From contig NZ_CP071517.1 of the NCBI RefSeq assembly GCF_016613475.2, positions 2,356,001 through 2,420,000 on the forward strand: 64,000 nt of DNA, read 5' to 3'. The notes beneath the pieces were generated by a model. That model did not search any database, was not told the origin of the DNA, and was given only the letters and a program-made list of their open reading frames with translations. Numbering within the stretch: the stretch's first letter is position 1; each line of letters begins with the position of its first letter. This stretch comes from Lysobacter arenosi. GTDB taxonomy: Bacteria; Pseudomonadota; Gammaproteobacteria; Xanthomonadales; Xanthomonadaceae. A program made the translations under genes and the position numbers. Below, piece by piece: positions 15,782 through 31,078 of this stretch.

Positions 15782-15876
15782 TGGCTGTCCCCATTTGCTT
15801 CCGCCGACCGGCACGGTCGACGCCCCTTGCCGAAGACTAGGCAATCGAGTGAGCAGGCTCAAGTCGGGCTGCCAAC

Positions 15877-15895
15877 CCGGTCACACTTTGACCGG
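15877..15895. terminator. Hairpin downstream of glk
   Basis: CCGGTCA and TGACCGG form a 7-bp stem around a 5-base loop, about 30 bases after the glucokinase stop. No T-run follows; weak terminator candidate for the long minus-strand operon. Confidence 0.35.
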
Positions 15896-15925
15896 CATGC
15901 CGGCAAAACCGGGCGTCACCGACGC

Positions 15926-16975
15926 TCAAGCATTGGACGCGTGCAGCAACTCCGCCGCGTGCGCCGCCGCACCCAGCAACCCGGAGCTGGGATGCACGAT
16001 GGCCAGCGAAGGCACTTCGGCCAGCGCCGAGGAGAAGCGGCCCTTGCTTTCGAACCTTTCGCGGAACGACGACGCCTGCAGCGCGGGCAGCAGCTTCGGC
16101 ACCAGACCGCCCGCGAGGAATACGCCATCCCATGCGCCGTGCGTGAGCACGAGGTCGCCGGCCATCGAGCCGAACGCGGCGCAGAACACTTCGATGGCCC
16201 GCTGGCAGTTCGCGTCGCCGGCCGCTGCCCTGGCCGTGATCGCCGATGGCTCCGTCGTCTCCTGCGTTTGCCCATGAATCTCGCACACGGCGCTGTACAG
16301 GTTCACCAGGCCTGGCCCGGATACCAGGCGCTCGCACGAGACGCGACCGAACCGGCCGATGAGGCATTCCAGCAGGCGCAGGTCCGCCACCGTCACCGGC
16401 GCGAATCCGGCGTGACCGCCTTCGGTCTCCAATGGGTAGCACCTGCCGTTGCGAACCAGCAGTCCGCCCACGCCCAGTCCGGTGCCCGGACCGATCACGG
16501 CATAGGTGCGCGGCACGCGCGCATCGAACGGGCGCCAGGCCTGCGGCCCGATCGCAACGACGTCATCGCGCTGCAGGCAGGTGATCGCCATCGCCTGCGC
16601 GGCGAAATCGTTGATCAGTGCTACATGGCTGATGCCCAGCGCGCGCTCGGTCTGCTCGCGCGAGATCACCCACGGGTGGTTGGTGATGCGGACTTCGTCG
16701 TCGACGATGCGCCCCGCCACGGCGAAGACCGCCAGGTCGACATGCTCGCCCTGCATCTGCAGGTAACTGCCGGCCGCTTCGCTCAGCGAAGCAAACCCGG
16801 CCACCGGGAACTCGCGGACACTGCCCGCGACCAGCACGCCGCGACTGCCGGCCTCGGCCAGGCCGAAGCGCGCGTTGGTGCCGCCGACGTCGCTGACCAG
16901 CACGCGCGTCCCTGCCCGTCTTGCGAAATGTCGAGCGCTTCCGCTATCACGGAAGCGACCCGCGGCGTTGTTCAT
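15926..16975 (-). CDS. glk: Glucokinase
   Basis: The protein has 349 residues. The phosphate-1 motif VSDVGGTNARFGL and GPGTGLGVGGLLV place it in the Glk family (not ROK), which phosphorylates cytoplasmic glucose with ATP. Its ATG overlaps the TGA of the GH5 gene by four bases (ATGA), implying translational coupling. It is the last gene of the operon that begins with the TonB receptor, a position that fits phosphorylation of glucose liberated from imported glucosides. About 20 extra N-terminal residues precede the conserved core, so a later start is possible. Confidence 0.93.
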   Translation of the reverse strand: MNNAAGRFRDSGSARHFARRAGTRVLVSDVGGTNARFGLAEAGSRGVLVAGSVREFPVAGFASLSEAAGSYLQMQGEHVDLAVFAVAGRIVDDEVRITNHPWVISREQTERALGISHVALINDFAAQAMAITCLQRDDVVAIGPQAWRPFDARVPRTYAVIGPGTGLGVGGLLVRNGRCYPLETEGGHAGFAPVTVADLRLLECLIGRFGRVSCERLVSGPGLVNLYSAVCEIHGQTQETTEPSAITARAAAGDANCQRAIEVFCAAFGSMAGDLVLTHGAWDGVFLAGGLVPKLLPALQASSFRERFESKGRFSSALAEVPSLAIVHPSSGLLGAAAHAAELLHASNA

Positions 16976-18756
16976 CTGCGCTCCGATGCCGCGGTCGGCG
17001 GCGTGAACTGGACGGACTGCAGGTCGGTGCCGGCGCTTATGGCCTCGATGACCAGCGTGTTACGCCCTTCGAGCAGCGCCACCTCGCGCGGTCGTCCGGT
17101 CGTGGCCTTCCCGACCACGACACCGTTGAGGGTGACGCGGGCATCGCCGCGGCTGCCCTGCAGTTGCAATCCATAGCGGCCCGCATTGGCGGCCGTGAAG
17201 GTGTACTTCAACCACTCGCCCGGCTGCATGTCGGCGACGTGCAGGCCGTCCGCGCCGTCAGCCAGGTCGACGCCGTCGTTGCGGTAGGTCTTCGAAGGAT
17301 TCCAGCCGGTGTCGGGCTTGCCGCTTTCGTTCGCGGACGTGAGGTCGTGGTAGGCGACGCCATTGCGGCCCATGTCGAAGTCGACGGCCGCTATCGTGTC
17401 CATGCCTGTGCCGCCGCCTGCGCCGATGCGATGGTCCTTGAACGGCACGCTGCGGTCGTCGCCCGGCGCGCGCAGCAGGGCGTCGACGACGTCGGGGTGG
17501 AAGGTGTTGTTCTCGTAGCGGATGTCGTGCGTGGCCAGCGTCATCAGCGCCGCTTCCGCCTCGGCCGGTGCCGGCCTGGCACTTTCGCCGCGCCAGTACG
17601 CCAGCACCTTGGCGTAACCGGGATTAGGCTGGATCTGCAGCGGATTGTTGTAGCGGATCTTCTTCAGCGGCCAGATCGCCCAGCCGATGCCCTCGGCCTC
17701 GACCGTCGCCACGGTGCGGGTGAACCAGTCGTTGGAGTTCTCACCGGTCTCGCCCAGCCACAACGGCAGGTTCCAGCGTTCGCGCAGCGCCAGCGGGTCC
17801 TCGAGGGTGTCGCGACGGGTGCCGTTCCAGTACTTGTGGAAGCTGACCACCAGGTTGTCGTCCCAAAGCCCCTGGTCGAGCACGCCGCGGTAGTTGTTGC
17901 CCCAGCAGTTGCCCTCGATCACGACGATGTGGCGGCGGTCGACTTCTCGGATGGCCTGCGTGGTGCGCACCAGCAGGTCGCGCAGGGGCGCGTTGCCGTT
18001 CTCGCTGCAGCCGTGCTTGTCGCCGGCATCGGCGAAGCCCCAGTTGGGCTCGTTGATGATGTCGTAGGCGGCGATCGCCGGCTCGTCCTTGTAGCGATCT
18101 GCCAGCTTTCGCCACAACGCGACCATCTTGTCGCGGTTGGCCTCGTCATCCCACAGCGACGGCGTCGCCGGGTCGCGGTCGGAAATGTTGAGGTCGTTGC
18201 CCTGCCCGCCCGGCGCCGCGTGCAAGTCGAGCACCAGGTACATGCCGTTGGCCTTCACCCACGACAGCAGCTCGTCGGTGCGGCGGAAACCTTCCTCGCG
18301 CCAGGTCTGCTGGCCGCGCACGGGCTCGTCCGACACCGGCGGCGTGTAGAGCTCGTAATGCATCGGCAGCCGCACGGAGTTGAAACCCCATGCCGCCAGC
18401 GCGTCGATGTCGGCCTTGGTGACATGGTTGTCGCGCCACGCCTGGTAGAACGCTTCGGCCTTCTCAGGGCCGATCAGTTCGCTGATGCGGGCGCGGATCG
18501 AACGCTGGGTGCCATTGCCCTGCACTTCCAGCATGTAGCCTTCCTGCAGCATCCAGCCGCCCAGGCCGATGCCGCGCAGCAGCACCACGTTGCCCTGCTC
18601 GTCGACGATGTGCCTGCCCTGCGCGCGAAGGAATCCGCCGGCATGGGCGGGCAGCGCCGCCAGCAGGCAGCTGGCCACGAGCGCACTGGCCGCAACGCGG
18701 CCCGCTCCCAGCCCGACCCGGCGGCAGATGCCGCCGACGTTCTCCGGCGAGCGCAT
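16972..18756 (-). CDS. Exported GH5 endoglucanase-like hydrolase with C-terminal carbohydrate-binding module
   Basis: The protein has 594 residues from the ATG at 18756, with a signal peptide ending in PAHA near residue 39. The GH5 barrel spans roughly 45-430: acid/base Glu236 in DIINEPNW, nucleophile Glu336 in WLGETGEN, and HAAPGGQGND in the cleft. The C-terminal 150 residues (MDTIAAVDFDMG to AGTDLQSVQF) look like a CBM6-type beta-sandwich. Family members cut beta-1,4 glucans, mannans or related polymers; the exact bond cannot be read off. It begins 10 bases after the halogenase stop and overlaps glk, so it belongs to the TonB-receptor operon. Confidence 0.88.
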   Translation of the reverse strand: MRSPENVGGICRRVGLGAGRVAASALVASCLLAALPAHAGGFLRAQGRHIVDEQGNVVLLRGIGLGGWMLQEGYMLEVQGNGTQRSIRARISELIGPEKAEAFYQAWRDNHVTKADIDALAAWGFNSVRLPMHYELYTPPVSDEPVRGQQTWREEGFRRTDELLSWVKANGMYLVLDLHAAPGGQGNDLNISDRDPATPSLWDDEANRDKMVALWRKLADRYKDEPAIAAYDIINEPNWGFADAGDKHGCSENGNAPLRDLLVRTTQAIREVDRRHIVVIEGNCWGNNYRGVLDQGLWDDNLVVSFHKYWNGTRRDTLEDPLALRERWNLPLWLGETGENSNDWFTRTVATVEAEGIGWAIWPLKKIRYNNPLQIQPNPGYAKVLAYWRGESARPAPAEAEAALMTLATHDIRYENNTFHPDVVDALLRAPGDDRSVPFKDHRIGAGGGTGMDTIAAVDFDMGRNGVAYHDLTSANESGKPDTGWNPSKTYRNDGVDLADGADGLHVADMQPGEWLKYTFTAANAGRYGLQLQGSRGDARVTLNGVVVGKATTGRPREVALLEGRNTLVIEAISAGTDLQSVQFTPPTAASERR

Positions 18757-18766
18757 CCGCGCCGAC

Positions 18767-20296
18767 TCAGGTCGCGCCGACCGGCGCCGGCTCGCGCGGG
18801 CCCGGGCAGTACTGGTCGATGTAGGCCTGATGCTGCGGCAGCGCCCTGACGGTGCTGTCGACATTGCGACGGATGTCGTCGAGGAACCGCTTCAGGTCCG
18901 GCTCGCTCATCACGTCGGCGGTCGGGTGGTACTGCCTGGGCATGACGCCCTGCCCCATCATCACCTGGATCCACGAGTTCTCGGCGAACAGCTCCTCGGC
19001 CTGGCGGAACACCTTGCCGGTCTCGCGGAACAGGTCGATGCGATGCTTCAGCGTCGCCGGGATCTCCATCGCCTGGATGTCGCGCCAGTACTGCGAGTCG
19101 CGACGGTTGGTCAGGTGGTAGTGCATCACGACGAAGTCGCGCACATGCTGCAGCTCGGAATCGAGCGTGGCGTTGTACTGGTCGATGTCGGGCTGGGTGA
19201 CCACCTGCGGGAACATCCGCAGCAGGTGAACGATGCCGCGCTGGATCAGGTGGATCGTGGTCGATTCCAGCGGCTCGATGAAGCTGCCGGCCAGGCCGAG
19301 CGCGATGCAGTTCTTCTCCCAGCTTTTCTTGCGCTGGCCCGGCTTGAAGCGGATCGGCCACGGGTCCTTGATGATCTCGCCTTCCACGCTCGACAGGAAC
19401 TCGTGCTTGGCCTCGTCGTCGCTCATGTGCTTGCTGGAGTAGACGATGCCGTTGCCGACGCGGTGCTGCAGCGGGATGCGCCATTGCCAGCCGGACTTGC
19501 CGGCGATGGCGCGCGTATAGGGCACCGCGTCGCGCACGGCCAGCGTCTGCGTGGCCAGGGCGCTGTCGTTGAACAACCAGTGCGACCAGTCCTCGAAGCC
19601 GACGCCGAGCGCCTTGCCGATCAGCAGCGCACGGAAGCCGGTGCAGTCGATGAACAGATCGCCCTCGACGGTCGAACCGTCAGCAAGCTTGAGCGCGGTT
19701 ATGAAGCCCGAGGCCTCGTCGGTCTCGACTTCGACGATCTTGCCTTCGATGCGGCGCGCGCCATGGTCCTGGCTGAGCTTGCGCAGGAAGCGCGCATACA
19801 GGCTCGCATCCATGTGGTAGGCGTAGTTGATGCCGCCGCGCGGCAGGTGCGCGAACTTGTCCTCGAGCGCGGCCTTGAGCTCGACGCAGTAGTCCTCGTA
19901 ACCGCTGGCGATGCCGAGCTTCTGGCCGCGCATCCAGAAGTGCTGGAAGCCGGCGGACCAGTGGTCCTTGCCGCTGATGCCGAAGGAGTGGATGTAGCGG
20001 TGGCCTTCGTCGAGCCAGTTCTCGAACGAGATGCCGAGCTTGATCGTGCCCTTCACCGCCGACATGTACTCCTGCTCCTTGATGTCGAGCAGGCGGTGGA
20101 ACGTCACCAGGGTCGGGATGGTGGCTTCGCCGACGCCGACCGTGCCGATCTCCTCGGACTCGATCAGGGTGATGTCGAGCACCTTGCCCAGCGTCTTCGA
20201 GAGCGCCGCGGCCGCCATCCAGCCGGCGGTGCCACCACCGGCGATGACCACGCGGCGGATCGGCTTGTTTCGGAGGTCGGGGCGGTCGGTCGTCAT
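18767..20296 (-). CDS. Flavin-dependent tryptophan-halogenase-family protein (copy nearest GH5)
   Basis: The protein has 509 residues from the ATG at 20296. The FAD motif GGGTAGW is at 20-26, the predicted catalytic Lys86 is in GTIKLGISFENW, the halogenase signature WQWRIP is intact (Trp270, Trp272) and SFIEPLESTTI marks the active-site Glu/Ser strand. All features of an active FADH2-dependent halogenase are therefore present. Related Xanthomonas enzymes from receptor-linked clusters are reported to halogenate free indoles in vitro, but a biological role is not established. It begins 10 bases after the cupin gene and ends 10 bases before GH5, so it is cotranscribed. No flavin reductase gene is adjacent. 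Confidence 0.9.
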   Translation of the reverse strand: MTTDRPDLRNKPIRRVVIAGGGTAGWMAAAALSKTLGKVLDITLIESEEIGTVGVGEATIPTLVTFHRLLDIKEQEYMSAVKGTIKLGISFENWLDEGHRYIHSFGISGKDHWSAGFQHFWMRGQKLGIASGYEDYCVELKAALEDKFAHLPRGGINYAYHMDASLYARFLRKLSQDHGARRIEGKIVEVETDEASGFITALKLADGSTVEGDLFIDCTGFRALLIGKALGVGFEDWSHWLFNDSALATQTLAVRDAVPYTRAIAGKSGWQWRIPLQHRVGNGIVYSSKHMSDDEAKHEFLSSVEGEIIKDPWPIRFKPGQRKKSWEKNCIALGLAGSFIEPLESTTIHLIQRGIVHLLRMFPQVVTQPDIDQYNATLDSELQHVRDFVVMHYHLTNRRDSQYWRDIQAMEIPATLKHRIDLFRETGKVFRQAEELFAENSWIQVMMGQGVMPRQYHPTADVMSEPDLKRFLDDIRRNVDSTVRALPQHQAYIDQYCPGPREPAPVGAT

Positions 20297-20306
20297 ACGG
20301 TATGCC

Positions 20307-21326
20307 TCAGCGGTTGAGTCGTTGCAGCAGGCGCGCGCGCAAGCTGCGCGCCTGGGTTTCATCGAGGGGCGAGAGCACGCGGCGCGCCCCCTCGGGGATG
20401 TGGTCGGCGGTCGCCTCGCCGGGCTGGAACACGTAGTGGCGGAACACGTCTTCCCAGTTGGCGCGCTGCTCCGGCGGCAGGTCGCGCACGGTCATGATCG
20501 CCAGCATCAGCGCGTTCATCGGCGTGTCCATCCACGCCGGCGTCTGCCGCCACCAGTAGTTGACCAGCACGTTGAAGTCTTCCAGCGCCTCCATGTGGTG
20601 CCACCACAGGCTCGGGATCAGCACCGCGTCGCCGGGTTCGAGCACCGCCGTCAGCGCATGCGCCTGCGCCTCGCGGAAGCGCGGGAAGCGCTCGTAATCC
20701 GGCGCGGCGAAATCGACCAGGCTGATCGGCTGGCCGGCCGGCGTGTGGTCGAGCGGACCGATGTAGAGGTTGCGCAGCTGGTCGGGCGGGAACAGCGTCA
20801 CCCGGCGCCGGCCGGCAACCACGCAGGCCAGGTTGTCCGGCACGTCCTGGTGCGCGGCGATGCGGGTGCGGTTGCCGATCCAGATGCTGGCCAGCGGCTC
20901 GGCGCCCGGGATCGTCAGGTCGTTGCGTTCGCGGAAGCCCGGCAGCCAGGTGTCGATCGTGGTCGAGCCGATGTAGATCGCCGGGGACGTATCCTGCTGC
21001 GCGTACTTCAGCAGCGTCTTCAAGGCGACGCCGAGCGGCACGTGCTCCTGGCGGAAATTGAAGCCGCTCAGATCGTCGTTGTAGAAGAAGCGCCCGCCGA
21101 TCTCCGGCGGCCCGACGGTGGCGACCACCGGCGGCGCATCGGCGCGCTCAAAACCGCGCAGGTAGGCCACCGACGCTTCTGCCGGGCCGCGGCTTGCCTG
21201 CACCATCGGCCAGTTCGCCACCAGACCGCGCAGCACCACCGGCTTGCCCGATTGCAGCAGGTCGGACGGGATTGCACGCGGATCGACGTCCGCGAGCTCG
21301 CCGATGGGGCTAGTGCCCGGCAGCAT
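20307..21326 (-). CDS. Cupin-8/JmjC-like 2-oxoglutarate/Fe(II) dioxygenase-type protein
   Basis: The protein has 339 residues. The double-stranded beta-helix metal triad is visible as AAHQDVPDN (His-x-Asp) and, about 85 residues later, PSLWWHHMEAL (His). PVVLRGLVANWP near the N-terminus is typical of the cupin_8 group related to factor-inhibiting-HIF hydroxylases. It probably hydroxylates a protein or small molecule; the substrate is unknown. Its start overlaps the end of sapC by 17 bases and the halogenase follows after 10, so the three are tightly coupled. The same trio occurs beside TonB receptors in other Xanthomonas/Caulobacter-type bacteria. Confidence 0.85.
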   Translation of the reverse strand: MLPGTSPIGELADVDPRAIPSDLLQSGKPVVLRGLVANWPMVQASRGPAEASVAYLRGFERADAPPVVATVGPPEIGGRFFYNDDLSGFNFRQEHVPLGVALKTLLKYAQQDTSPAIYIGSTTIDTWLPGFRERNDLTIPGAEPLASIWIGNRTRIAAHQDVPDNLACVVAGRRRVTLFPPDQLRNLYIGPLDHTPAGQPISLVDFAAPDYERFPRFREAQAHALTAVLEPGDAVLIPSLWWHHMEALEDFNVLVNYWWRQTPAWMDTPMNALMLAIMTVRDLPPEQRANWEDVFRHYVFQPGEATADHIPEGARRVLSPLDETQARSLRARLLQRLNR

Positions 21327-22032
21327 GGCGGCGGTTCATCCGCGCGATGAGGTCGCGGAAGCGCGAGACCGACGCGACCACCATGTACACCGGCTCCAGA
21401 TGACCAGCACGGTGCAGCTCGTCCAGCGCGGCGGCATCGAGCGCGCGCAGCCGCTCCTCGTTGATCGTGTAGAAGCCGACCAGGCGATTGAGCGAACCGT
21501 CGTCGAGTTCGACATCGAGGGTGAACGACTCGATCAGGTCGTGGCGCAGCATCGCCGCCATGAAGGCCGGAGTGCCCTCCAGGCCATCGTGCAGCGTCAT
21601 CAGCACCGAGGTGATGCGGTCGAGGTAATCGGTGGTGCCGCCCTGGTCGCGGAACAGCATCTCGCCGCGGTCGCTGCGCACGCGCGGATGGTCGAGGTCG
21701 ATGTGCACCATCAGCTGCTCGCCGTCGCGACCGATGAGGAACGGCTGCCGCTCGATTGCCAGCGGTACGTAGGTCGCGTCCCAGCGTCCTTCATCGAGGA
21801 AGAGGTTGCTGCCCTGCCTGTCCTTGCCCTGGTAGAAGCCGAACATCGCCACCGGCTGCAGTTCACCCTGGGCGTCCTTGTGGAACACGATCGGGTAATG
21901 CGCCTGGACGCTGCGGAACTCCGCCGGGAAGGTCACCGTGAACATGACATCGTCGCCCAGCGCGGCGTCGTGGCCGGTGTCGACGCGCAGCGCCTTGTGG
22001 TCGATGTTGTTGAGCAGTACGTGGTTCGGCAT
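21310..22032 (-). CDS. SapC-family protein
   Basis: The protein has 240 residues from the ATG at 22032 (MPNHVLLNNIDHKALRV). The motif set VMFTVTFPAEFRSVQAHYP, FGFYQGKDRQGSNLFLDE and the C-terminal GFYTINEERL matches the SapC family, first named in Campylobacter S-layer loci. Its biochemical role is unknown. No signal peptide or membrane segment is visible. It is placed 75 bases after the upstream halogenase and overlaps the cupin gene. In this type of locus it constantly accompanies the halogenases, which suggests a shared pathway rather than S-layer work. Confidence 0.85.
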   Translation of the reverse strand: MPNHVLLNNIDHKALRVDTGHDAALGDDVMFTVTFPAEFRSVQAHYPIVFHKDAQGELQPVAMFGFYQGKDRQGSNLFLDEGRWDATYVPLAIERQPFLIGRDGEQLMVHIDLDHPRVRSDRGEMLFRDQGGTTDYLDRITSVLMTLHDGLEGTPAFMAAMLRHDLIESFTLDVELDDGSLNRLVGFYTINEERLRALDAAALDELHRAGHLEPVYMVVASVSRFRDLIARMNRRHAAGH

Positions 22033-22107
22033 GGCCCTGGTGTGTCCTGGCAAACGCGTGAGTTCGTATCCTATGCCGCCACCGCGGCCCTTTGCCGCGA
22101 CTGGCAA

Positions 22108-23691
22108 CTAGATCTTCGACATCCCCCGCGTCATCACGTGGTCGAGCATTTCGCGATGTCCGGGCAGCGCGGCCAGCATCTTGCGGGTCAGCTCGGCCGC
22201 TTCGCGGAAGTAGCCCTCGGCCTGCGCGGGATCGTCCATGCGCCGGGTGGTCGGTCGCTGCTCGGGATGGAAGCCCATGCCGTAGAGGATGTACTGGTAG
22301 CTGGCCGAGGGGAACACCTCCTCGATCCTGTACAGGTCATGGCGCGACGGTGGCTGGTGACGCCACAGCTGCAGCAGTTGCTTGAGGCGATCGGGGATCG
22401 ACTCGGGCCGGCAGTTGTCGCGCCAGTAGTCGCTGTCGGTGCGCCCGGTCAGCACGTAATGCAGCTTGAGGAAATCGACCACCCGTTCCCAGCGGTACTG
22501 GAACGAGTCGTTGTAGCGCGCGGCGACGATGTCCATGTCGCTGCGCGTGGCCGGCAGCTGGTCGCTGAGCATGCCGGCCGCCAGTTCCACCAGCACCAGC
22601 GAGGACGCTTCCAGCGGTTCCATGAACCCGCTCGACAGGCCGATCGCGACGCAGTTGCGGTGCCACGACTTGGGCCGGTAGCCGGGGCGGATGGTGATCT
22701 TCGGCAGCGTGTAGATGTCCTGCTCGCGCCCGCCGGTGGCCTTGACGTACTTCAGCAGTTCGTCGGCAGCCGCCTCGTCCGTCGTGTGCGTGCTCGAGTA
22801 CACATGGCCGACGCCGCGCCGCGTCTGCAGGCCGATGTCCCAGACCCAGCCGCTGCTCTGCGCGGTCGAGATGGTCTGGCAGGCGATCTCCTGGCGCGGG
22901 TCCGCATACGGCACCTGCAGGGCGATCGCGCGGTCGTTGAACAGCACGTGCTTCTGCGACTGGATCTCGATGCCGTAATGCTGGCCGATCAGCAGCGCGC
23001 GCATGCCCGTGCAGTCGATGAACAGGTCGCCCTCGATGGCGCCGTGATCGCGCGTCTGCAGCGAGGCGATATCGCCGTTGTCGTGGGCGTTGACCCCGGT
23101 CATGTGGTCGCTGACGTGGCGAACGCCGAGCCGCTCGACGCAGTGCTTGCGCATGAACACACCGAGCTTGCCGGCGTCGAGGTGGTAGGCGTAGTTGGCC
23201 ACGGCCGCCCACTCGGGCGTGGAGAACTGCTTGGGTGCCTTGCCGGCCTCGCACAGGTGCGGCTGGAAGCTGACCAGCTTGCCGAACGGCACCTGCGAAT
23301 GCTTCATCCACCCGGCGACCACATTGGTCTCCAGGTAGCCCTGCGGCAGCACGAACGGATGGTAGTAGTAGTCGTCGTCGCGATCGACGCGCCAGCGGGC
23401 GAACTTGGAGCCCTGCTTGAAGGCGCCATCGCACTCGCGGATGAAATCGGTCTCGGTCACGCCGGTCCTGCGCAGGGTATCGCGCATGGTCGGCCAGGTA
23501 CCTTCGCCGACACCGATCGTGGCCACGTCGGGCGATTCGATCAGGGTTACTTTCAGGCCGCCAGCGCTGGACGCCTGGTGGTCAGCGGCCAGCACCGCCG
23601 CCGTCAACCAGCCCGCCGAGCCGCCGCCAAGGATCACAACGTGCTTTACACCTTGACTCAAACCAGCCTTTCCCAGATCAGCCTGACTCAA
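22108..23691 (-). CDS. Flavin-dependent tryptophan-halogenase-family protein (copy nearest the receptor)
   Basis: The protein has 527 residues from a TTG at 23691, chosen because AGGGGG lies 5 bases upstream; a second TTG at 23661 is an alternative. FAD motif LGGGSAGWL near 21-29, predicted catalytic Lys96 in KQGSKFARW, and SGFMEPLEASSLVL at the active site are present. The signature segment reads GWVWDIGL: both tryptophans are kept (282, 284) but the usual final proline is glycine. Length and order otherwise agree with the family. It follows the receptor gene by 95 bases and is only distantly similar to the other halogenase here, so the two may take different substrates or sites. Confidence 0.88.
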   Translation of the reverse strand: MSQADLGKAGLSQGVKHVVILGGGSAGWLTAAVLAADHQASSAGGLKVTLIESPDVATIGVGEGTWPTMRDTLRRTGVTETDFIRECDGAFKQGSKFARWRVDRDDDYYYHPFVLPQGYLETNVVAGWMKHSQVPFGKLVSFQPHLCEAGKAPKQFSTPEWAAVANYAYHLDAGKLGVFMRKHCVERLGVRHVSDHMTGVNAHDNGDIASLQTRDHGAIEGDLFIDCTGMRALLIGQHYGIEIQSQKHVLFNDRAIALQVPYADPRQEIACQTISTAQSSGWVWDIGLQTRRGVGHVYSSTHTTDEAAADELLKYVKATGGREQDIYTLPKITIRPGYRPKSWHRNCVAIGLSSGFMEPLEASSLVLVELAAGMLSDQLPATRSDMDIVAARYNDSFQYRWERVVDFLKLHYVLTGRTDSDYWRDNCRPESIPDRLKQLLQLWRHQPPSRHDLYRIEEVFPSASYQYILYGMGFHPEQRPTTRRMDDPAQAEGYFREAAELTRKMLAALPGHREMLDHVMTRGMSKI

Positions 23692-23703
23692 ATCGTCCCC
23701 CTG

Positions 23704-23723
23704 GCCACGCCGGCTAGCGTGGC
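23704..23723. other. Hairpin between receptor gene and first halogenase
   Basis: GCCACGC and GCGTGGC form a 7-bp stem around a 6-base loop within the 95-base gap. No T-run follows, so it is more likely an RNA stabilising or processing stem that lowers expression of downstream genes relative to the receptor. Confidence 0.4.
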
Positions 23724-23786
23724 ACTACTCCCCGGACAGCGAACGGGAGCCACCGGCGTACCGGCGGCCCCCGCGACTTTCGCACA

Positions 23787-26700
23787 TCAGAACTGGTAGC
23801 GGAATCCGAGCATGTAGCGCGGACCGTTCTGCGTGGCGAACAGCGTCTGCCGCTCATTCCGGCCGAACACCCGCACCGTCTCGTCGGTGATGTTGATGCC
23901 TTCGAACTGCACCGACATCTGGTCGTTGATCTGGTAGCCGATGCTGATGTCGAGCTGGCCGTAGTCATCGACGTAGTTCGGGTTCGGAATGCCCGAGCCG
24001 TCGAACACCGCCGACAGGAACTGGTCGCGCCAGTTGTAGGCCGTGCGGACCGACCAGTCGTACTTCTCGTAGAACAGCACCAGGTTGGCCGAATCGCTGA
24101 GGCCGACCAGGGCGAACTGCCCGCCGAGCACTGCGTTGTCGTAGTTCAGGTCCGGACTGTCGACGATGGTGTAGTTGGCGGCGACGCCGAAGCCGGTCTC
24201 GCCGAACACGTGCTGGACGTTGAATTCCCAGCCGTCGAGCGTGGAGTCCTGCTTGTTGGCCGGCGTGGTGATCCTGAAGCTCGCCAGCGGATCGCTGGAC
24301 AGGCCGTTGATCGTGCCGGTGGCGTTGCCGTTGGCATCCGTGCCCGTCCTGGTCACGCCCGGCTGGCCGTTGAAGTTGCCCAGGATGTAGTTGCGGATGC
24401 AGACCACGTCGGCCTGCGGGCAACCGTTGGCCAGTGCCGCGTTCCAGTAGCCGCCGCCGACCGGCGTGTGCAGGTTGAACGGCGTCTCGCCGTCGCTGCC
24501 GCCCACGTCGATGATCTGCGAGGTGCCGATGTAATTCTCGATGTCCTTGCGGAAGTAGCCCACCGAGACGTAGCTGGATTCGGCGAAGTACCACTCGAAC
24601 GACAGGTCGAAGTTGTCCGACACCAGCGGCTTGAGCGACGGATCGCCCTGGGTGCCGGTGCCGCCGTCGACGCGCACGATCTGGTCGAGCGTGCGCCCGC
24701 CCTGGATGTCCGCCCAGCCCGGCCGGCCGATGGTCTGGCTGTAGCTGCCGCGCAGGATGATGCTGTCGGTGATGTCCAGGCTGGCGTCGAGGTTGGGCAG
24801 CCAGTAGTCGTACTCGCCACGCAGCGTCGCGAAGCCCGGCTCGCCGAAGTTCAGGTTCAGCTCGTTGGCCGCGCTCCAGGAGATGCCGGTGGCGGTCGGC
24901 ACGAGTGCCGAGGACGTCACCTCGGTCTTCTCGTAGCGCACGCCGGCCGCCAGGTTCAGCGGCATCGACCAGTTGAACGTGGTCGTGTACTGCATGTAGC
25001 CGCCGGTGGACTTCTCTTCCGTGCGCAGGTCGCGGGTGAACGCCTCCGGTGCCCGGTACCACTCGGGGTGGCCGGTCAGCTCGGCCGCCCGCGCGCGCAG
25101 TCGATCGAAATCGAACAGCAGGAAGCGGTCGGTGAAGGCCGGGGCGTTATGCCCGGAGAAGCTCTCGAAGTATTCACCCATGTTGTCCGGGGTGAAGATG
25201 CTGTCGTCGTAGTCCGCCGCGGTGCCGACGCCGCCCCAGGTATCGCGCTGCATGAAGCCGAACGCGGTCCGGTTCTCGACGTCGGTGTAGGAGGCGCCGA
25301 AGTCCAGTCCGGAGTACTCACCGAACTCGAAGCGGCCCTTGACCTGGGTCTGCTCGATCTCGGACTTGTTGTAGGCGTTGTTGAACACCGAGCCCGATAC
25401 CAGCGCCTGCGACGGTTCCACCTGCGACACGCCCGGCGGAAGCGCGATGGTCACCACCGGGAAGTCGCGGGTGAAGTCCGCCGTGGTGTCGCCACGCACG
25501 AACGCCGACATGCCCAGCACGCCAGCCGAGCCCCACGGGCTGTCCGGACGCGTTTCGGCCGAAGAGTTGTGGTAGTCCAGCGACAGGTCGAGGGCGTCGC
25601 TGATTTCCCAGTCGACGTTGAAGCCGAGCGACTTGTTCTCGTTGACGTTGGCCAGGCGCATGCCGCCCATCGAGACGTCGCTGTTGGCCGGGTTGATGAT
25701 TTCCTTGTAGATCAGCGGCGCGGCCACCGGGCCATCGGTCCAGGAGGAGACCGACGGGCCGAAGTTGAACCACACCGACAGCTCGTTGCGCTGCTGCTGG
25801 ATCTTGTTCTCGGAGTAGGTGTAGTCCAGCGTCGTCGTGACGTTGTCGGCCGGCGCCCACTGCAGGGTCAGCTGGCCGTTGGTGCGCTGGCGCTGCACGC
25901 CGTTGACGCTGTAGTTGAGGTTCTGCGGAACCGAGTAGATGTCGGTCGGACCGGGGCGGTTGGTGATGTTCTCCGAACCCGGCGTGCCCGGCTGCGGAAT
26001 CGTGCCCCAGTTGTTCTCGTCGCCGCGGAACGGACGCCAGCCGTTGGGCACGCCGACCTGGCTGAAGCCGAAGTCGCGTTCCTGGTAGCTGCCGGTCAGG
26101 GCCACGCCGAACGTACCGTCGAAGTAGCGCTGGCTGAAGATGCCCGAGATTTCCGGGGTGATGTCGTGGCCCTGCAGCGAATCGGGCAGGTTGCCGTTGG
26201 ACGTGTCGTGCACGGCCTTCATGCCGACATTGATGACCGGCTCGGACTCCAGCGGCCTGGCGGTGCGGATGTTGATCGTCGCGCCGATGCCGCCGGGCGG
26301 GATGCTGGCCCGGCTGGTCTTGTAGACCTCGACGCTGGAGATCGCTTCCGACGCCAGGTTGGCGAAGTCGAATGCGCGCGAGTTGGAGACGCCGGCGCCG
26401 TTGCCGTTGCTCGAGGCCGGCATCTGCCGTCCGTTGAGCATGACCATGTTGTAGTCCGGGCCAATGCCGCGCACGGTGACCCGCGCGCCCTCGCCGAGCG
26501 AGCGGTCGATCGACACGCCGCTGATTCGCTGCAGCGACTCGGCCAGGTTGGTGTCCGGGAACTTGCCGATGTCCTCGGCGACGATGCCGTCGACGACACC
26601 CTGCGAGTCGCGCTTGAGGTTCATCGACGAGGTCAGGCTTCCGCGGATGCCCTGCACCACGACGGTGTCCAGCGTCCGCGCGTCCTCATCGACCGTTGCC

Positions 26701-26828
26701 GAGCGCTGCCCGGCTTCGGACGTGTTGGTGGTGTTGGTTGTTTGTTGTGCATACAGCGGCTGGCTCAGCGCCAGCAGCAATGCGGACGTAAGAAGTGTGC
26801 GCTTGGGGGCGACACGCGACTGCTTCAT
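23787..26828 (-). CDS. TonB-dependent receptor, Xanthomonas/Caulobacter type, likely for an oligosaccharide
   Basis: The protein has 1013 residues with a signal peptide of about 27 residues (QPLYA end). A TonB-box-like LDTVVVQG is followed by the plug domain (GVVDGIVAEDIGKFPDTNLAESLQ is split here only for description; ARVTVRGIGPDYN and ISSVEVYK follow). The beta-barrel ends YMLGFRYQF with the terminal Phe needed for outer-membrane insertion. The receptor family with this plug is found in Xanthomonas and Caulobacter relatives, where many members import plant oligosaccharides. A strong ribosome site (GGGGAGGAG) precedes the ATG. Upstream lie a promoter overlapped by a LacI palindrome and, farther out, a xyl-box. 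It heads the operon of halogenases, sapC, cupin, GH5 and glk. The ligand is probably a beta-glucan or xylan fragment. Confidence 0.92.
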   Translation of the reverse strand: MKQSRVAPKRTLLTSALLLALSQPLYAQQTTNTTNTSEAGQRSATVDEDARTLDTVVVQGIRGSLTSSMNLKRDSQGVVDGIVAEDIGKFPDTNLAESLQRISGVSIDRSLGEGARVTVRGIGPDYNMVMLNGRQMPASSNGNGAGVSNSRAFDFANLASEAISSVEVYKTSRASIPPGGIGATINIRTARPLESEPVINVGMKAVHDTSNGNLPDSLQGHDITPEISGIFSQRYFDGTFGVALTGSYQERDFGFSQVGVPNGWRPFRGDENNWGTIPQPGTPGSENITNRPGPTDIYSVPQNLNYSVNGVQRQRTNGQLTLQWAPADNVTTTLDYTYSENKIQQQRNELSVWFNFGPSVSSWTDGPVAAPLIYKEIINPANSDVSMGGMRLANVNENKSLGFNVDWEISDALDLSLDYHNSSAETRPDSPWGSAGVLGMSAFVRGDTTADFTRDFPVVTIALPPGVSQVEPSQALVSGSVFNNAYNKSEIEQTQVKGRFEFGEYSGLDFGASYTDVENRTAFGFMQRDTWGGVGTAADYDDSIFTPDNMGEYFESFSGHNAPAFTDRFLLFDFDRLRARAAELTGHPEWYRAPEAFTRDLRTEEKSTGGYMQYTTTFNWSMPLNLAAGVRYEKTEVTSSALVPTATGISWSAANELNLNFGEPGFATLRGEYDYWLPNLDASLDITDSIILRGSYSQTIGRPGWADIQGGRTLDQIVRVDGGTGTQGDPSLKPLVSDNFDLSFEWYFAESSYVSVGYFRKDIENYIGTSQIIDVGGSDGETPFNLHTPVGGGYWNAALANGCPQADVVCIRNYILGNFNGQPGVTRTGTDANGNATGTINGLSSDPLASFRITTPANKQDSTLDGWEFNVQHVFGETGFGVAANYTIVDSPDLNYDNAVLGGQFALVGLSDSANLVLFYEKYDWSVRTAYNWRDQFLSAVFDGSGIPNPNYVDDYGQLDISIGYQINDQMSVQFEGINITDETVRVFGRNERQTLFATQNGPRYMLGFRYQF

Positions 26829-26901
26829 CGAAACTCCTCCCCAGAATTCACGATCGAGATTGCAGGCGTCGCCACGCTGCCCGCATGTTCAGTGCGGAGG
26901 G

Positions 26902-26930
26902 ATTTGACGTCGGATTGACAGCGCTGTCAA
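26902..26930 (-). promoter_or_regulatory. Predicted sigma-70 promoter of the receptor operon
   Basis: On the minus strand a perfect -35 TTGACA (26930-26925) is followed after 17 bases by TCAAAT (26907-26902) as the -10. Transcription would start about 65 bases before the receptor ATG. The -35 is part of the LacI-type palindrome. Confidence 0.65.
26915..26930. promoter_or_regulatory. LacI-type operator, perfect 16-bp palindrome, before the receptor
   Basis: TTGACAGCGCTGTCAA is fully self-complementary with the central CG typical of LacI-family sites. The same 16 bases recur at 28442-28457 before the GH3 gene; the LacI gene at 27207-28214 lies between the two copies. Confidence 0.85.
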
Positions 26931-27048
26931 CACACCCCTGTCCGGAGACTCTTTTTGATCGAATACCGCTGTTTTTCAGTTGTTTTTTCGTTGTGCAGTG
27001 CAGCGATTCAGGCCGACTTGCCCGCGAATCGAAGCATTGTCGCGTCAG

Positions 27049-27062
27049 TGTTAGCGCTAGCA
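27049..27062 (-). promoter_or_regulatory. xyl-box in the receptor upstream region
   Basis: The minus strand reads TGCTAGCGCTAACA, one base from the reported Xanthomonas xyl-box TGGTAGCGCTAACA. It lies about 220 bases upstream of the receptor ATG and about 120 bases upstream of the predicted -35, between the lacI-type gene and the receptor. Confidence 0.78.
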
Positions 27063-27083
27063 TTTGTGCACTTCGTGCGCGCT

Positions 27084-27115
27084 CGCACATACGCGCGCAC
27101 ACGCATGCACGCGCG
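27084..27115. other. 32-bp perfect alternating purine-pyrimidine tract
   Basis: The stretch alternates pyrimidine and purine without a break (CG, CA and TA steps), a sequence type that can adopt left-handed Z-DNA under negative supercoiling. It lies 22 bases from the xyl-box, in the intergenic region upstream of the receptor. Confidence 0.7.
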
Positions 27116-27206
27116 AGCAGTCATGCGCAGCAGTTGACGGGAGTGGTGTTCGAACGGTCGCGCGTCGATCGAGTGGCCGATCGCGTCTTTAACCACGCGA
27201 CATCCG

Positions 27207-28214
27207 TCAGCGGCGCGACGGCGCCTGCGTCGATTCGCGCATGACCAGTGCATGGTCGACGCGCAACATGCGCCCTGCTTCGGGCGACTTGATCCTGGCC
27301 AGCAGTTCCAGCGTGGCCAGTCGCCCCATCTCGGACGTGGGCTGGCGGATGGTGGTCAGCGACGGATAGATGTGCCGCGAAATAGGCGTGTCATCGAAGC
27401 CGCACACCGACAGGTCGCCCGGCACGTTCAAGCCGCGCTCGCGGGCGACGCGTATCACGCCTGCCGCCATGTCGTCGTTGGCGGCGAAGATCGCGGTCGG
27501 CGGCTTGCGCAGGTCGAGCAGTTCCTGCGCTCCAGCGCAACCGGACTCGAACGAGAACGCGCCCTGCACCACAAGCTCCGGATCGAATTCGATCCCGGCG
27601 TTCTGCAGCCCCTTGCGATAGCCGTCGAATCGCCAGCGGCAGGCACCGTGCGCGGCGGCGCCTTTGATGTGACCGATCCGGGTGTGGCCGAGTTCGACCA
27701 GCTTGGCCATCAGTTCCAGCACCGCGGTCGTCTCGTCCATCGCCACGCCGATCCGGCCGGCGGCGTTCTTGGGCGCGATGCAGGCGAACGGCACGCCCAT
27801 CTTCTCCAGCTCGTCGATGATCAACTTGTCGTCGGTCAGCGGCGGGATCAGCAGCACGCCGTCCGGGCCGAAGTTGCGGAACAGGCCCTGGATGTCGGCG
27901 ACCCGCTCGCGGCCGAGGCTGACCGCGGCCAGGAAAAGGTTGTAGTTGCTGGCATGGCAGGCCTCGAGCATGCCGTTCTGCACTTCCATCATGTAGTTGC
28001 GCGACGGGTTGTTGTAGGCCAGTGCCACGCTGTAAGAGCGCTGCCCGGCGAGGCTGCGCGCGGATGGATTGGGTTTGTACTGCAGCTCGGTCACGGCCTG
28101 CATGACGCGCTCGCGCATCTCTTCGCGCACGTTGGGCTCGTTGTTGAGCACGCGCGAGACAGTCTTCATCGACACGCCGGCAGCGGCGGCGACATCCTCG
28201 ATTCGAATACGCAT
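27207..28214 (-). CDS. LacI-family transcriptional regulator of the receptor/beta-glucosidase genes
   Basis: The protein has 335 residues from the ATG at 28214 (MRIRIEDVAAAAGVSMKTVSRV), which places the HTH at the N-terminus as in all LacI proteins. The hinge PNPSARSLA and the sugar-binding domain ending VCGFDDTPISRHIYPSLTT follow. It is a clear paralogue of the regulator at 4883-5959. It is divergent from the GH3 gene and lies upstream of the receptor. Perfect palindromes flank it at 26915-26930 and 28441-28458, which are the natural candidates for its operators and would also allow autoregulation. The inducer is probably a product of GH3 or an imported glucoside; this is inferred from neighbours. 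Confidence 0.9.
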   Translation of the reverse strand: MRIRIEDVAAAAGVSMKTVSRVLNNEPNVREEMRERVMQAVTELQYKPNPSARSLAGQRSYSVALAYNNPSRNYMMEVQNGMLEACHASNYNLFLAAVSLGRERVADIQGLFRNFGPDGVLLIPPLTDDKLIIDELEKMGVPFACIAPKNAAGRIGVAMDETTAVLELMAKLVELGHTRIGHIKGAAAHGACRWRFDGYRKGLQNAGIEFDPELVVQGAFSFESGCAGAQELLDLRKPPTAIFAANDDMAAGVIRVARERGLNVPGDLSVCGFDDTPISRHIYPSLTTIRQPTSEMGRLATLELLARIKSPEAGRMLRVDHALVMRESTQAPSRR

Positions 28215-28415
28215 TGAGCGGCGGATGCTCCAGGGGGCGGAACGCGGCAGATGGTGCCAGAACCATGGCTGTCCGCGATGACAGGACCGGACATGGGCTC
28301 CGAGCGGCCAGAGTATGCATCGCAAAGGCTTGCTGCGGCGCAGCAGCCAGGACCGGGCCGCCGGGGGCTATTTCGCGACGGCTTTGCATATCCATGCGAT
28401 GGCTGGTCGCGAACA

Positions 28416-28445
28416 TTGACAAGGGGCATTGCCGGCTTGTATTGA
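28416..28445 (+). promoter_or_regulatory. Possible promoter of the GH3 gene
   Basis: TTGACA at 28416-28421 and, after 18 bases, TATTGA at 28440-28445 form a weak -35/-10 pair whose -10 runs into the palindrome. The start codon is about 85 bases downstream. Confidence 0.4.
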
Positions 28446-28458
28446 CAGCGCTGTCAAT
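28441..28458. promoter_or_regulatory. LacI-type operator, perfect 18-bp palindrome, between the lacI-type gene and GH3
   Basis: ATTGACAGCGCTGTCAAT is fully self-complementary and contains the exact 16-bp palindrome found before the TonB receptor. It lies 74 bases upstream of the GH3 start and 227 bases from the regulator start, suited to control of both divergent genes. Confidence 0.87.
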
Positions 28459-28531
28459 CGCTGGCGCGGCGGCTGCCGGACATGGTCCCGGCCAGCCTTG
28501 CGCTGCCAGAATCGTCCATGGGGAGCAGAAC

Positions 28532-31078
28532 GTGCAGGCGAGAGTTTTCGTTGGAGCAAGTCTTTTGGCGATCGGTGCGGCACTGTTCCTGTATGGCGGC
28601 AATGGAGTTGCGGCCGACCAGTCCTCCGGGCAGGCGACGGCCCTGCAGGACTGGCCACGTGTCGACAGCGCCATCGCCCGTGACGCGGCCATCGAGGCGC
28701 GCGCCCGGCAGATCCTCGCCGGCATGACCCTGGCCGAGAAGGTCGGCCAGATGACGCAGCCCGAGATCAAGGCGATCACGCCCGATGAGGTGCGCAGCTA
28801 CCACATCGGCTCGGTCCTCAACGGCGGCGGTTCCTGGCCGGCCATGAACAAGCACGCGACCGTCGCCGACTGGCTGGCCCTGGCGGACAGCTACCACCAG
28901 GCGTCGATGAGCGCGCAGGTCAAGACGCCCATCCCGGTGATCTGGGGTACCGACGCGGTGCACGGCCACAACAACGTGGTCGGTGCGACGCTGTTCCCGC
29001 ACAACATTGGCCTGGGCGCGGCACACGACCCGGAGCTGGTCGAGAAGATCGGCCACGCCACCGCACAGGCAACCCGCGCCACCGGCATCGACTGGGCCTT
29101 CGCGCCGACCCTGGCCGTCGCCCAGAACATGCGCTGGGGCCGCAGCTACGAAAGCTTCTCGTCCGACCCGGCGGTCGTGCACGCCTATGCCGCGTCCTAC
29201 ATCCGCGGCCTGCAGGGCGACCTGCGCGGTGACGGCACCGTGGTGGCAACGGCCAAGCATTTCATCGGCGACGGCGCCACCGACATGGGCCGCGACCAGG
29301 GCAACGCGCTGATCCCGCGCAGCGAGATGATCAACGTCCACGGCCAGGGTTACTACGGCGCGATCGGCGCCGGCGTGCAGACGGTGATGGCCTCGTTCAA
29401 CAGCTGGGACGACGTCGACGGCGGCGTTGACTACGGCAAGATGCACGGCGCGCAGGCGCTGCTGACCGGCGCGCTCAAGGACAAGATCGGCTTCGACGGC
29501 TTCATCGTCTCCGACTGGAACGGCATCGCCCAGGTGCCCGGCTGCAGCAATGCCAGCTGCCCGCAGGCGATCATCGCCGGCATTGACATGGTGATGGTGC
29601 CCGAGGACTGGAAGGCGTTCATCGCCAACACCATCGCCCAGGTCGAGGACGGCTCGATCCCGATGTCGCGCATCGACGATGCCGTCACCCGGATCCTGCG
29701 CGTGAAACTGCGTGCCGGTTTGTTTGACCGCAAGCCGTCCGACGGGCGTTACGCCGGCAAGGCCGACGCGCTGGTGCATCGCGAGCTCGCCCGCGAGGCG
29801 GTGCGCGAATCGCTGGTGCTGCTCAAGAACGAACGCAAGGCGCTGCCGCTCAAGGCCGGCCAGCGCGTGCTGGTGGTCGGCAAGAGCGCCGACAGGTACA
29901 CCAACCAGACCGGTGGCTGGACACTGACCTGGCAGGGCACCGACAACACCAGCGCCGACTACCTCAACGCCGAGACCGTGCTGGCCGGCCTGCGCGAGGC
30001 GCTCGGCGCGGACCGCGTGACCTTCGACCCGACCGGCACGGCCGCCGATCCGGGCAAGTTCGACGTCGTCGTCGCGGTGATCGGCGAAACGCCGTATGCC
30101 GAGACCAACGGCGACATCATCGGCTCGGACACGATGGCGCACAGCCGCCGCCACCCCGAGGACCTGGCGGTGCTGAAGGCGGCCGCCGCGCACGGCAAGC
30201 CGGTGGTGACCGTCTTCATGTCCGGCCGCCCGCTCTACAGCAACGACCTGATCAATCTGTCCGATGCCTTCGTCGCCGCGTGGCTGCCGGGCTCTGAAGG
30301 CGGCGGTGTCGCCGACGCACTGGTGGCGTCGAAGCGTTTCGACTTCCGTGGTCGCCTGTCGTTCTCGTGGCCAGGCGTCGCCTGCCCTGCGCCGGAGAAC
30401 CGCCCAGATCCCAAGCGCCCGCCGCTGTTCGCGCGTGGCTACGGCCTCACCTATGCCAAGCCGGCTTCGGTGCCGAAGCTGGATGAGTCCGACGTCGATG
30501 CCTGCGGCCCGGCGACGTCGCTGCCGATCTTCAACACCAACGACGCCGCGCCGTTCCAGCTGCAGGTCGAAGCCGGCGGCGCCACGCAAGTGGTCGGTGC
30601 CTCGCTCAACGACACGCTGGAGTGGCCGAAGGCCAGGCCGGCGATCCGCGTCGCCACCACGCAAGTCAACACGCAGCAGGACGCCAAGTCGGTGACCTGG
30701 CTGGCACCGGCACGCCTGCTGGCGCGCAGCACCGGCGCCAACAACCTCAACGCACTCGCCTTCGCCGGCGGCGGCTTGCAGTTCGACGTCGTCGTGCAGA
30801 AGGCACCGACCTCGCCGGTGCTGGTGGGCATGACTTCGGGCAAGGTCTCGGGCAGCGTCGACATCGCGCCGCAACTGATCGCGGCCGGCATCGGCAAGAA
30901 GGTGACGATCAACGTGCCGCTGAAATGCTTCGCTGACCAGAAGGTCGACGTCGGTGCCGTCGACGTGCCCTTCAGCGTCTCAGCAAAGGCGCCGTTCGCG
31001 GCTGCGTTCACCCGCGTGGCGGTGGTCGCCGGCGCGGCGAAGCAAGCCAATGCGATCGACTGTGGCCCGGCACCGTAA
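28532..31078 (+). CDS. Exported GH3 exo-beta-glucosidase / glucan 1,4-beta-glucosidase
   Basis: The protein has 848 residues from a GTG start; GGGGAG lies 6 bases upstream and a signal peptide follows immediately, so the longer open frame upstream is not used. The (beta/alpha)8 domain contains KHFIGDGATDMGRDQG and the nucleophile Asp328 in GFIVSDWNG. The C-terminal alpha/beta domain is followed by about 200 residues resembling the ExoP galactose-binding-like domain of marine and Xanthomonas GH3 exoglucanases. It releases glucose from beta-glucans or cello-oligosaccharides in the periplasm or outside. It overlaps the deacetylase gene by 29 bases and has the LacI palindrome upstream. Confidence 0.92.
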   Translation: MQARVFVGASLLAIGAALFLYGGNGVAADQSSGQATALQDWPRVDSAIARDAAIEARARQILAGMTLAEKVGQMTQPEIKAITPDEVRSYHIGSVLNGGGSWPAMNKHATVADWLALADSYHQASMSAQVKTPIPVIWGTDAVHGHNNVVGATLFPHNIGLGAAHDPELVEKIGHATAQATRATGIDWAFAPTLAVAQNMRWGRSYESFSSDPAVVHAYAASYIRGLQGDLRGDGTVVATAKHFIGDGATDMGRDQGNALIPRSEMINVHGQGYYGAIGAGVQTVMASFNSWDDVDGGVDYGKMHGAQALLTGALKDKIGFDGFIVSDWNGIAQVPGCSNASCPQAIIAGIDMVMVPEDWKAFIANTIAQVEDGSIPMSRIDDAVTRILRVKLRAGLFDRKPSDGRYAGKADALVHRELAREAVRESLVLLKNERKALPLKAGQRVLVVGKSADRYTNQTGGWTLTWQGTDNTSADYLNAETVLAGLREALGADRVTFDPTGTAADPGKFDVVVAVIGETPYAETNGDIIGSDTMAHSRRHPEDLAVLKAAAAHGKPVVTVFMSGRPLYSNDLINLSDAFVAAWLPGSEGGGVADALVASKRFDFRGRLSFSWPGVACPAPENRPDPKRPPLFARGYGLTYAKPASVPKLDESDVDACGPATSLPIFNTNDAAPFQLQVEAGGATQVVGASLNDTLEWPKARPAIRVATTQVNTQQDAKSVTWLAPARLLARSTGANNLNALAFAGGGLQFDVVVQKAPTSPVLVGMTSGKVSGSVDIAPQLIAAGIGKKVTINVPLKCFADQKVDVGAVDVPFSVSAKAPFAAAFTRVAVVAGAAKQANAIDCGPAP

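Follow-up and report, generated by a model that had tools for sequence, protein, structure and literature searches.

The stretch examined here, which we call the window, is a 64,000-nucleotide piece of the Lysobacter arenosi genome (contig NZ_CP071517.1, positions 2,356,001 to 2,420,000), and our subject is a run of seven genes in which two halogenases, a SapC family protein and a cupin are encoded between a TonB-dependent receptor and a glycoside hydrolase. From the receptor downwards, the genes are:

23787..26828, minus strand: TonB-dependent receptor of the TIGR01782 (TonB-Xanth-Caul) type, 1013 aa (PF00593 and PF07715; TIGR01782 at 662.8 bits, cut-off 310)
22108..23691, minus strand: halogenase 1 (H1), PF04820, with active-site Lys92 and Glu361 and with WVWDIG in place of the usual WxWxIP
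21310..22032, minus strand: SapC family protein, 240 aa, with no evident signal peptide (PF07277 at 230.1 bits, cut-off 28.9)
20307..21326, minus strand: Cupin_8 protein, an FIH-like 2-oxoglutarate/Fe oxygenase, with H159, D161 and H243
18767..20296, minus strand: halogenase 2 (H2), PF04820, near Xcc4156 (6y1w), with Lys86, Glu344 and WQWRIP
16972..18756, minus strand: secreted GH5 glycoside hydrolase, PF00150, with a signal-peptide-like start
15926..16975, minus strand: glucokinase (PF02685 and TIGR00749, both over cut-off)

Both the gene set and its spacing agree with the sequence-only reading of this DNA: all seven genes lie on the minus strand, and the junctions from the receptor through H1, SapC, the cupin, H2 and GH5 to the glucokinase measure 95 bases, 75 bases, an overlap of 17, 10 bases, 10 bases and an overlap of 4, each identical to the length it had given. 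The starts used are the ATG at 22032 for SapC, the ATG at 20296 for H2 and, for GH5, the ATG at 18756 before the signal-peptide-like stretch. This spacing supports the single operon proposed in that reading, and the seven genes would be co-transcribed. A consensus scan of positions 15500 to 28700 found two terminator-like sites (mean of 5.9 in shuffled sequences), with none in any operon junction.

The four middle genes, hereafter the cassette, are a real and widespread unit that is bound to receptors. In searches of 299 Pseudomonadota genomes, with the best few candidates scored per genome (three for the receptor and five for the halogenase), 55 genomes had a PF04820 halogenase (E up to 1e-40) and 69 had a TIGR01782 receptor (E up to 1e-60), and the two co-occurred in 46 of the 55 and 46 of the 69 (odds ratio 49, p 9e-28). 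When 20 SapC-bearing genomes were searched, 10 had a receptor and 8 of these also had a halogenase. Within these 8 genomes, 30 of the 33 halogenases lie no more than 5 kb from a TIGR01782 receptor, where 1.1 would be expected under uniform placement, and 22 of the 61 receptors have a halogenase within the same distance, the receptor lists being possibly incomplete because at most 27 candidates per genome were considered. Halogenases far from a receptor were also found, at 96 kb from the nearest match (G182), 15 kb (G240) and 7.2 kb (G196), and further ill-fitting halogenases are those of loci L101 to L104 (4 of the 6 halogenase-bearing genomes of family f52) and of L121 and L122, which are described below with SapC.

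Gene order is likewise shared. Among 80 H1 loci, which are the best 80 of 578 H1 relatives and are thus biased to close kin, a receptor was found in 76, SapC in 75, the cupin in 61 and H2 in 55, and the order receptor-H1-SapC-cupin-H2 occurs in 44 (42 exact and 2 with an extra halogenase), followed in frequency by receptor-H1-SapC-cupin (12 of the 80). The carriers include Lysobacteraceae, Steroidobacter, Burkholderiales, Alteromonadaceae, Colwellia and others. Two modules can be discerned, namely H1 with SapC and SapC with the cupin and H2 (e.g. L040, L049 and L053). Three of the four loci lacking a receptor by our cut-offs lie on contigs of 4.0 to 6.7 kb (L147, L162 and L176), and the fourth is the Cellvibrio locus L204. 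In that locus, from Cellvibrio mixtus, the H1 relative has no receptor within 10 kb, and genes for ATP-grasp/alpha-E, a DUF2126 amidoligase and a transglutaminase are found nearby.

The proposal in the sequence-only reading depended on the set tending to adjoin TonB receptors in other genomes, and that tendency is clear from the 30 of 33 halogenases and the 76 of 80 loci. The set is not peculiar to this window: SapC is present in 111 of the 299 genomes, and Lysobacter arenosi itself, which has two SapC genes and six TIGR01782 receptors over cut-off, carries, at about 1.113-1.119 Mb, a second set with the order receptor-SapC-cupin-halogenase. The cupin of this second set (L040, about 1.1147-1.1155 Mb) appears split into overlapping fragments that occupy different frames, one of which contains an in-frame TGA, and is either a broken gene or the result of a sequencing error.

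Upstream of the receptor, a regulator gene and a pair of identical palindromes connect the operon with two divergent genes:

26915..26930: perfect 16-bp palindrome TTGACAGCGCTGTCAA, a predicted LacI operator, upstream of the receptor
27207..28214, minus strand: LacI-family regulator (PF00356 and PF13377; ATG start)
28214..31078, plus strand: GH3-family open reading frame (ORF) (PF00933, PF01915 and PF18559), its true start probably near 28.53 kb, past the operator
28442..28457: second palindrome, identical to the first, upstream of the divergent GH3 gene
31944..33245, plus strand: major facilitator superfamily (MFS) transporter (PF07690)

The LacI gene lies upstream of the receptor, and the GH3 and MFS genes diverge from it. 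Allowing one mismatch at most, TTGACAGCGCTGTCAA occurs at just these two sites in the whole 3.95-Mb genome, and the reversed pattern does not occur. The local LacI protein thus probably controls both the receptor operon and GH3 through this predicted operator pair. A LacI-type core palindrome, of cores that we picked ourselves, precedes the receptor in 41 of the 63 loci with enough upstream sequence, with 0.05 expected per such stretch. Because of the operator pair and the recurrence of such palindromes before receptors, the cassette is very probably induced together with the glycan locus. Judging from its content of GH5, GH3 and glucokinase genes, the glycan concerned is probably a beta-glucan. 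Among PDB structures, GH5 is closest to 9ku5, followed by a glucan 1,3-beta-glucosidase and CelC.

In these respects the locus resembles the Xanthomonas loci for carbohydrate utilization containing TonB-dependent transporters (CUT loci), which, as portrayed in sections of PMC1790865, likewise combine a receptor, a LacI-type repressor, an inner-membrane transporter and a hydrolase for one glycan. The window has a TIGR01782 receptor over cut-off and a LacI gene with a predicted common operator, as a CUT-type locus should. The difference lies in the four extra genes between the receptor and the hydrolase, since the main text of that paper names no halogenase, SapC or cupin. In the open library, to which our literature search was confined (subscription papers being outside its scope), no paper was found that joins tryptophan halogenase, SapC and TonB-dependent or describes the cassette, and four join tryptophan halogenase with TonB. 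Papers on N-acetylglucosamine and xylan uptake in Xanthomonas reportedly list such genes.

The active sites of the halogenases are conserved. H1, H2 and their relatives carry the GxGxxG motif and the catalytic Lys and Glu that are characteristic of PF04820 flavin-dependent halogenases, the Lys and the Glu each being retained in 96 of 96 H1 relatives and in 78 of 81 H2 relatives; the role of this glutamate is known from work on PrnA and RebH. H2 has WQWRIP where WxWxIP is expected, and H1 has WVWDIG, with G instead of P in 93 of 96 relatives. This substitution would suit an explanation in which the halogenase fold serves otherwise (as a flavin monooxygenase, in redox control or in the release of hypohalous acid) while SapC and the cupin form a separate chaperone pair, and the occurrence of halogenases beside receptors without SapC and cupin would suit it as well. 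We nevertheless consider it quite unlikely, given that Lys and Glu are invariant in all 96 H1 sequences. In the cupin, the HxD...H iron ligands are invariant (70 of 70), and its best PDB match is FIH, the HIF asparaginyl hydroxylase (3kcx and 1h2k, E 6.5e-23), with the HxD and His aligned. The two differ in that the cupin is bacterial and has Arg174 where FIH has a lysine, which we take to be Lys214.

The closest solved relative of H1 is 2pyx (545.6 bits), a structural genomics centre halogenase for which no reported function was found and which is unpublished according to a section of PMC7336383. H2 matches Xcc4156 (6y1w) at 727.6 bits over about 500 residues and BrvH (6frl) at 444.7 bits, and shares with them GxGxxG, the Lys and WxWxIP, which the consulted part of PMC5945002 names as BrvH motifs. 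Xcc4156 and BrvH, as far as the consulted parts of PMC7336383 and PMC5945002 describe, were studied singly in vitro, whereas H2 sits in a receptor operon. The natural substrate of these halogenases is an open question in print: the former source, in the part seen, states that the native substrates of such halogenases "remain unknown", and the question is also left open in the part of the latter that was consulted.

A somewhat unlikely answer is a small aromatic made by the cell, such as an indole or phenol signal, a siderophore-like carrier or an inhibitor, which would be halogenated and hydroxylated and would then either work together with the receptor or leave the cell past it. BrvH converts free indole to 3-bromoindole (PMC5945002, in part), Xanthomonas relatives act on indole derivatives (PMC7336383, in part), and the four middle proteins look cytoplasmic, with no evident export signals: a crude signal test called 18 of 96 H1, 3 of 86 H2, 1 of 73 cupin and 6 of 111 SapC sequences exported-looking, as opposed to 121 of 152 receptors, and several of the H1 calls are probably false, owing to the hydrophobic start of the flavin adenine dinucleotide (FAD) fold. 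On the other hand, the bromination of free indole by BrvH is weak, and the authors (same part of PMC5945002) doubt indole as its natural substrate for that reason and liken its solvent-open site to that of MibH, which, as reported there, chlorinates Trp only inside the peptide deschloro NAI-107. Nor were any flavin reductase or biosynthetic genes found in the operon or among the neighbouring ORFs scanned. The operon therefore lacks the make-up of a natural-product cluster, unlike a Streptomyces halogenase locus (L217) that lies in a biosynthetic cluster, has a flavin reductase and has no receptor. The company that SapC keeps beyond receptor loci, described below, also speaks against a small aromatic.

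Plasmids show the same attachment of halogenase to receptor across many glycans. From 91 plasmid halogenase records, 30 were listed and 20 opened, 19 of these being proteobacterial, and in 17 of the 19 a receptor stands beside the halogenase (16 directly and 1 with a DUF6445 gene between); the two misfits are H19, with a receptor about 4 kb off, and H20, with none within 6 kb. The intervening DUF6445 gene, on a Sphingomonas sanguinis plasmid (L219), occupies the place at which SapC or the cupin might be expected. A purpose-built receptor model gave scores of 462 to 991 bits for 15 of the 17 adjacent receptors, while that of Hirschia baltica (L038) scores 31 bits and that of Sphingobium yanoikuyae (L208) gives no match; an NCBIfam scan of 10 of the 17 placed 8 over the TIGR01782 cut-off, again excepting these two. 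Genes found with TIGR01782-like receptors encode xylanase, GH43, GH115, agarase, GH95, fucosidase, alpha- and beta-galactosidase, alpha-N-acetylglucosaminidase and beta-glucosidase, and the GH68 (fructan) locus is that of Hirschia, which carries the other receptor type. In the window locus's own relatives, GH3, GH1, GH30, GH94 and MFS genes recur.

The glycan thus varies while the receptor type is nearly always constant. This disfavours a substrate that arrives with plant polysaccharide, and the idea in the sequence-only reading that the enzymes process imported aromatics such as ferulate or indoles is very improbable. Some of the loci are xylan loci, and xylan can carry ferulate, but the same set, or its halogenase, stands at agar, fucoside, galactoside and beta-glucan loci, beside agarase, GH95, fucosidase, galactosidase and beta-glucosidase genes.

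For SapC, a confident structure model retrieved no fold match in the PDB. Outside receptor sets, 16 of 31 opened SapC loci adjoin surface proteins or export genes, a count of selected scanned neighbours that stands without a random-gene baseline. Among ten plasmid SapC loci, which we chose from 32 records away from halogenase loci, six fit: two with LEPR-XLL giant proteins and periplasmic adaptor genes, and one each with a filamentous haemagglutinin, an LktA-type adhesin with ShlB, VCBS/nidogen-like proteins and a DUF4214 protein. Three others, in Thiodictyon, Aureimonas and Mitsuaria, are misfits, and the one in Rhodospirillum fits only in part. Among loci L106 to L126, 10 of 21 fit, having beside SapC a TpsB (L106 and L113), a two-partner secretion (TPS) exoprotein (L109), outer-membrane efflux or HlyD/M50 parts (L111, L112 and L118), giant RTX proteins (L115 and L117) or a PPIC-type isomerase (L120 and L125). 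No surface or export gene was found among the selected scanned neighbours of SapC in L107, L108, L110, L114, L116, L119, L123, L124 and L126. In the two others, L121 and L122 (genomes G221 and G137), ORFs of 794 and 940 aa that resemble halogenases lie close to SapC and to a giant ORF, about 3,000 aa long, for which no Pfam match was found in either locus; L121 also holds a radical SAM gene, and the pair is possibly a further surface-protein modification cluster.

Receptor-linked SapCs form nearly one branch and separate from the others with 3 tree changes (21 in shuffles), two of which probably stem from the short receptor-set contigs L147 and L162 having been counted as "other". Cupin_8 does not belong to the non-receptor branch, such a gene being found in 1 of 20 of its genomes, and in one of the 21 loci above (L106, genome G187) the genome has one TIGR01782 receptor elsewhere. 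A protein target is hinted at because SapC outside receptor sets so often adjoins surface proteins or export genes; the shared partner of SapC may be a protein bound for the cell surface, and the receptor would be that protein in the cassette. The SapC contexts apply equally to a protein target other than the receptor, for instance TonB/ExbB, a periplasmic partner or a secreted hydrolase such as the GH5 within the operon. Such a target seems improbable, as the hydrolases vary among loci and GH5 and glucokinase lie outside the commonest strings (although only the receptor, halogenase, SapC and cupin genes were considered in assembling these strings).

Ten gains or losses suffice to place the set on a tree with 136 labelled receptors, compared to 34 in shuffles; the other 12 of the 148 receptors, whose set genes lie close by without being adjacent, were left unlabelled. 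In one large clade 83 of the 86 labelled members have the set, which also recurs in other branches. Receptor distances correlate with those of SapC at r 0.93, of H1 at 0.86 and of GH3 at 0.76, as bare correlations over the same 22 related loci.

Our preferred reading, to which we would give a probability of roughly 0.4, is that the four middle genes form a receptor-dedicated, cytoplasmic, protein-modifying cassette inside a LacI-controlled uptake locus, probably for beta-glucan. SapC would bind the freshly synthesized receptor, either ahead of export or in the course of it, as an adaptor or chaperone, the two flavin halogenases would halogenate, perhaps brominate, its aromatic side chains, the FIH-like oxygenase would hydroxylate it, and the modified receptor would then be exported. 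Sugar selectivity, stability and escape from phage or protease are candidate effects of such modification. Several independent strands of context point to protein modification, most likely of the receptor. Modification of the receptor was one of several options in the sequence-only reading; the SapC contexts and the open site of BrvH now rank it first. With kinship allowed for, the residue search linked no position of the receptor clearly to the set.

That last result is among several that weigh against receptor modification. In 365 residue tests over 10 independent pairs, the best residue followed the set in about 4 pairs, with 0 against, which is not significant. In three receptors of the main clade without a nearby set, 18 to 21 of the 23 conserved positions with an aromatic residue or His are retained, nine of the 55 halogenase-bearing genomes have no TIGR01782 match, and some receptors are accompanied by a lone halogenase with SapC and cupin missing. 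In Hirschia L038 and Sphingobium L208, a halogenase without SapC or cupin even stands beside a TonB receptor of another type. No surface or export gene was found among the scanned neighbours in about half of the SapC loci that lie outside receptor sets, and relatives of the halogenases do act on free indole in vitro.

The two genomes of the three set-less receptors carry other halogenases. Set-linked residues suggested by raw contrasts were dropped, none being significant over the 10 pairs; Trp651, for example, is present in 76% of receptors with the set and 5% of those without, with set receptors belonging mostly to one clade. Trp353 was also rejected as a marker of the set, as it is present in 82 of 82 main-clade receptors yet also in the nine exceptions examined. 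The best three residues, 756, 765 and 786 (window receptor numbering), cluster closely but are not significant over 10 pairs.

Small genes that accompany the genes for a large secreted protein and for its exporter are known from the Campylobacter S-layer locus, which has a SapC, and from the HlyC-type activators. We would like to note that the SapC described here, having no PDB fold match, demonstrates no common mechanism with either. MibH is a flavin halogenase that acts on a small peptide, whereas the substrate proposed for the cassette is an outer-membrane receptor, and the likeness drawn is between MibH and BrvH.

The components and the in vitro activities of their relatives are already known; what receptor modification would add, if true, is a halogenating modification of an outer-membrane transporter and a function for SapC. 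Within Pseudomonadota this halogenase family is common, as the 55 of 299 genomes illustrate, and its members are easily mistaken for antibiotic enzymes. Part of one paper reads Colwellia halogenase transcripts in that way, and in five Colwellia loci (L154, L156, L157, L188 and L206) the halogenase lies within about 5 kb of a receptor. A broader and more doubtful proposition is that Gram-negative bacteria halogenate and hydroxylate glycan receptors by means of a SapC-guided set, with the other SapC branch serving giant adhesins and RTX proteins; this would amount to a general system for modifying or handling surface proteins before export, partly misread as secondary-metabolite halogenases.

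Elsewhere in the window, a gene for a serine protease of the subtilase-autotransporter kind lies at 12761-15862, just downstream of the glucokinase and on the same strand. A GH67 alpha-glucuronidase gene (2559-4811) and a sialate-O-acetylesterase-type gene (501-2552) probably constitute a glucuronoxylan locus close to the halogenase locus.

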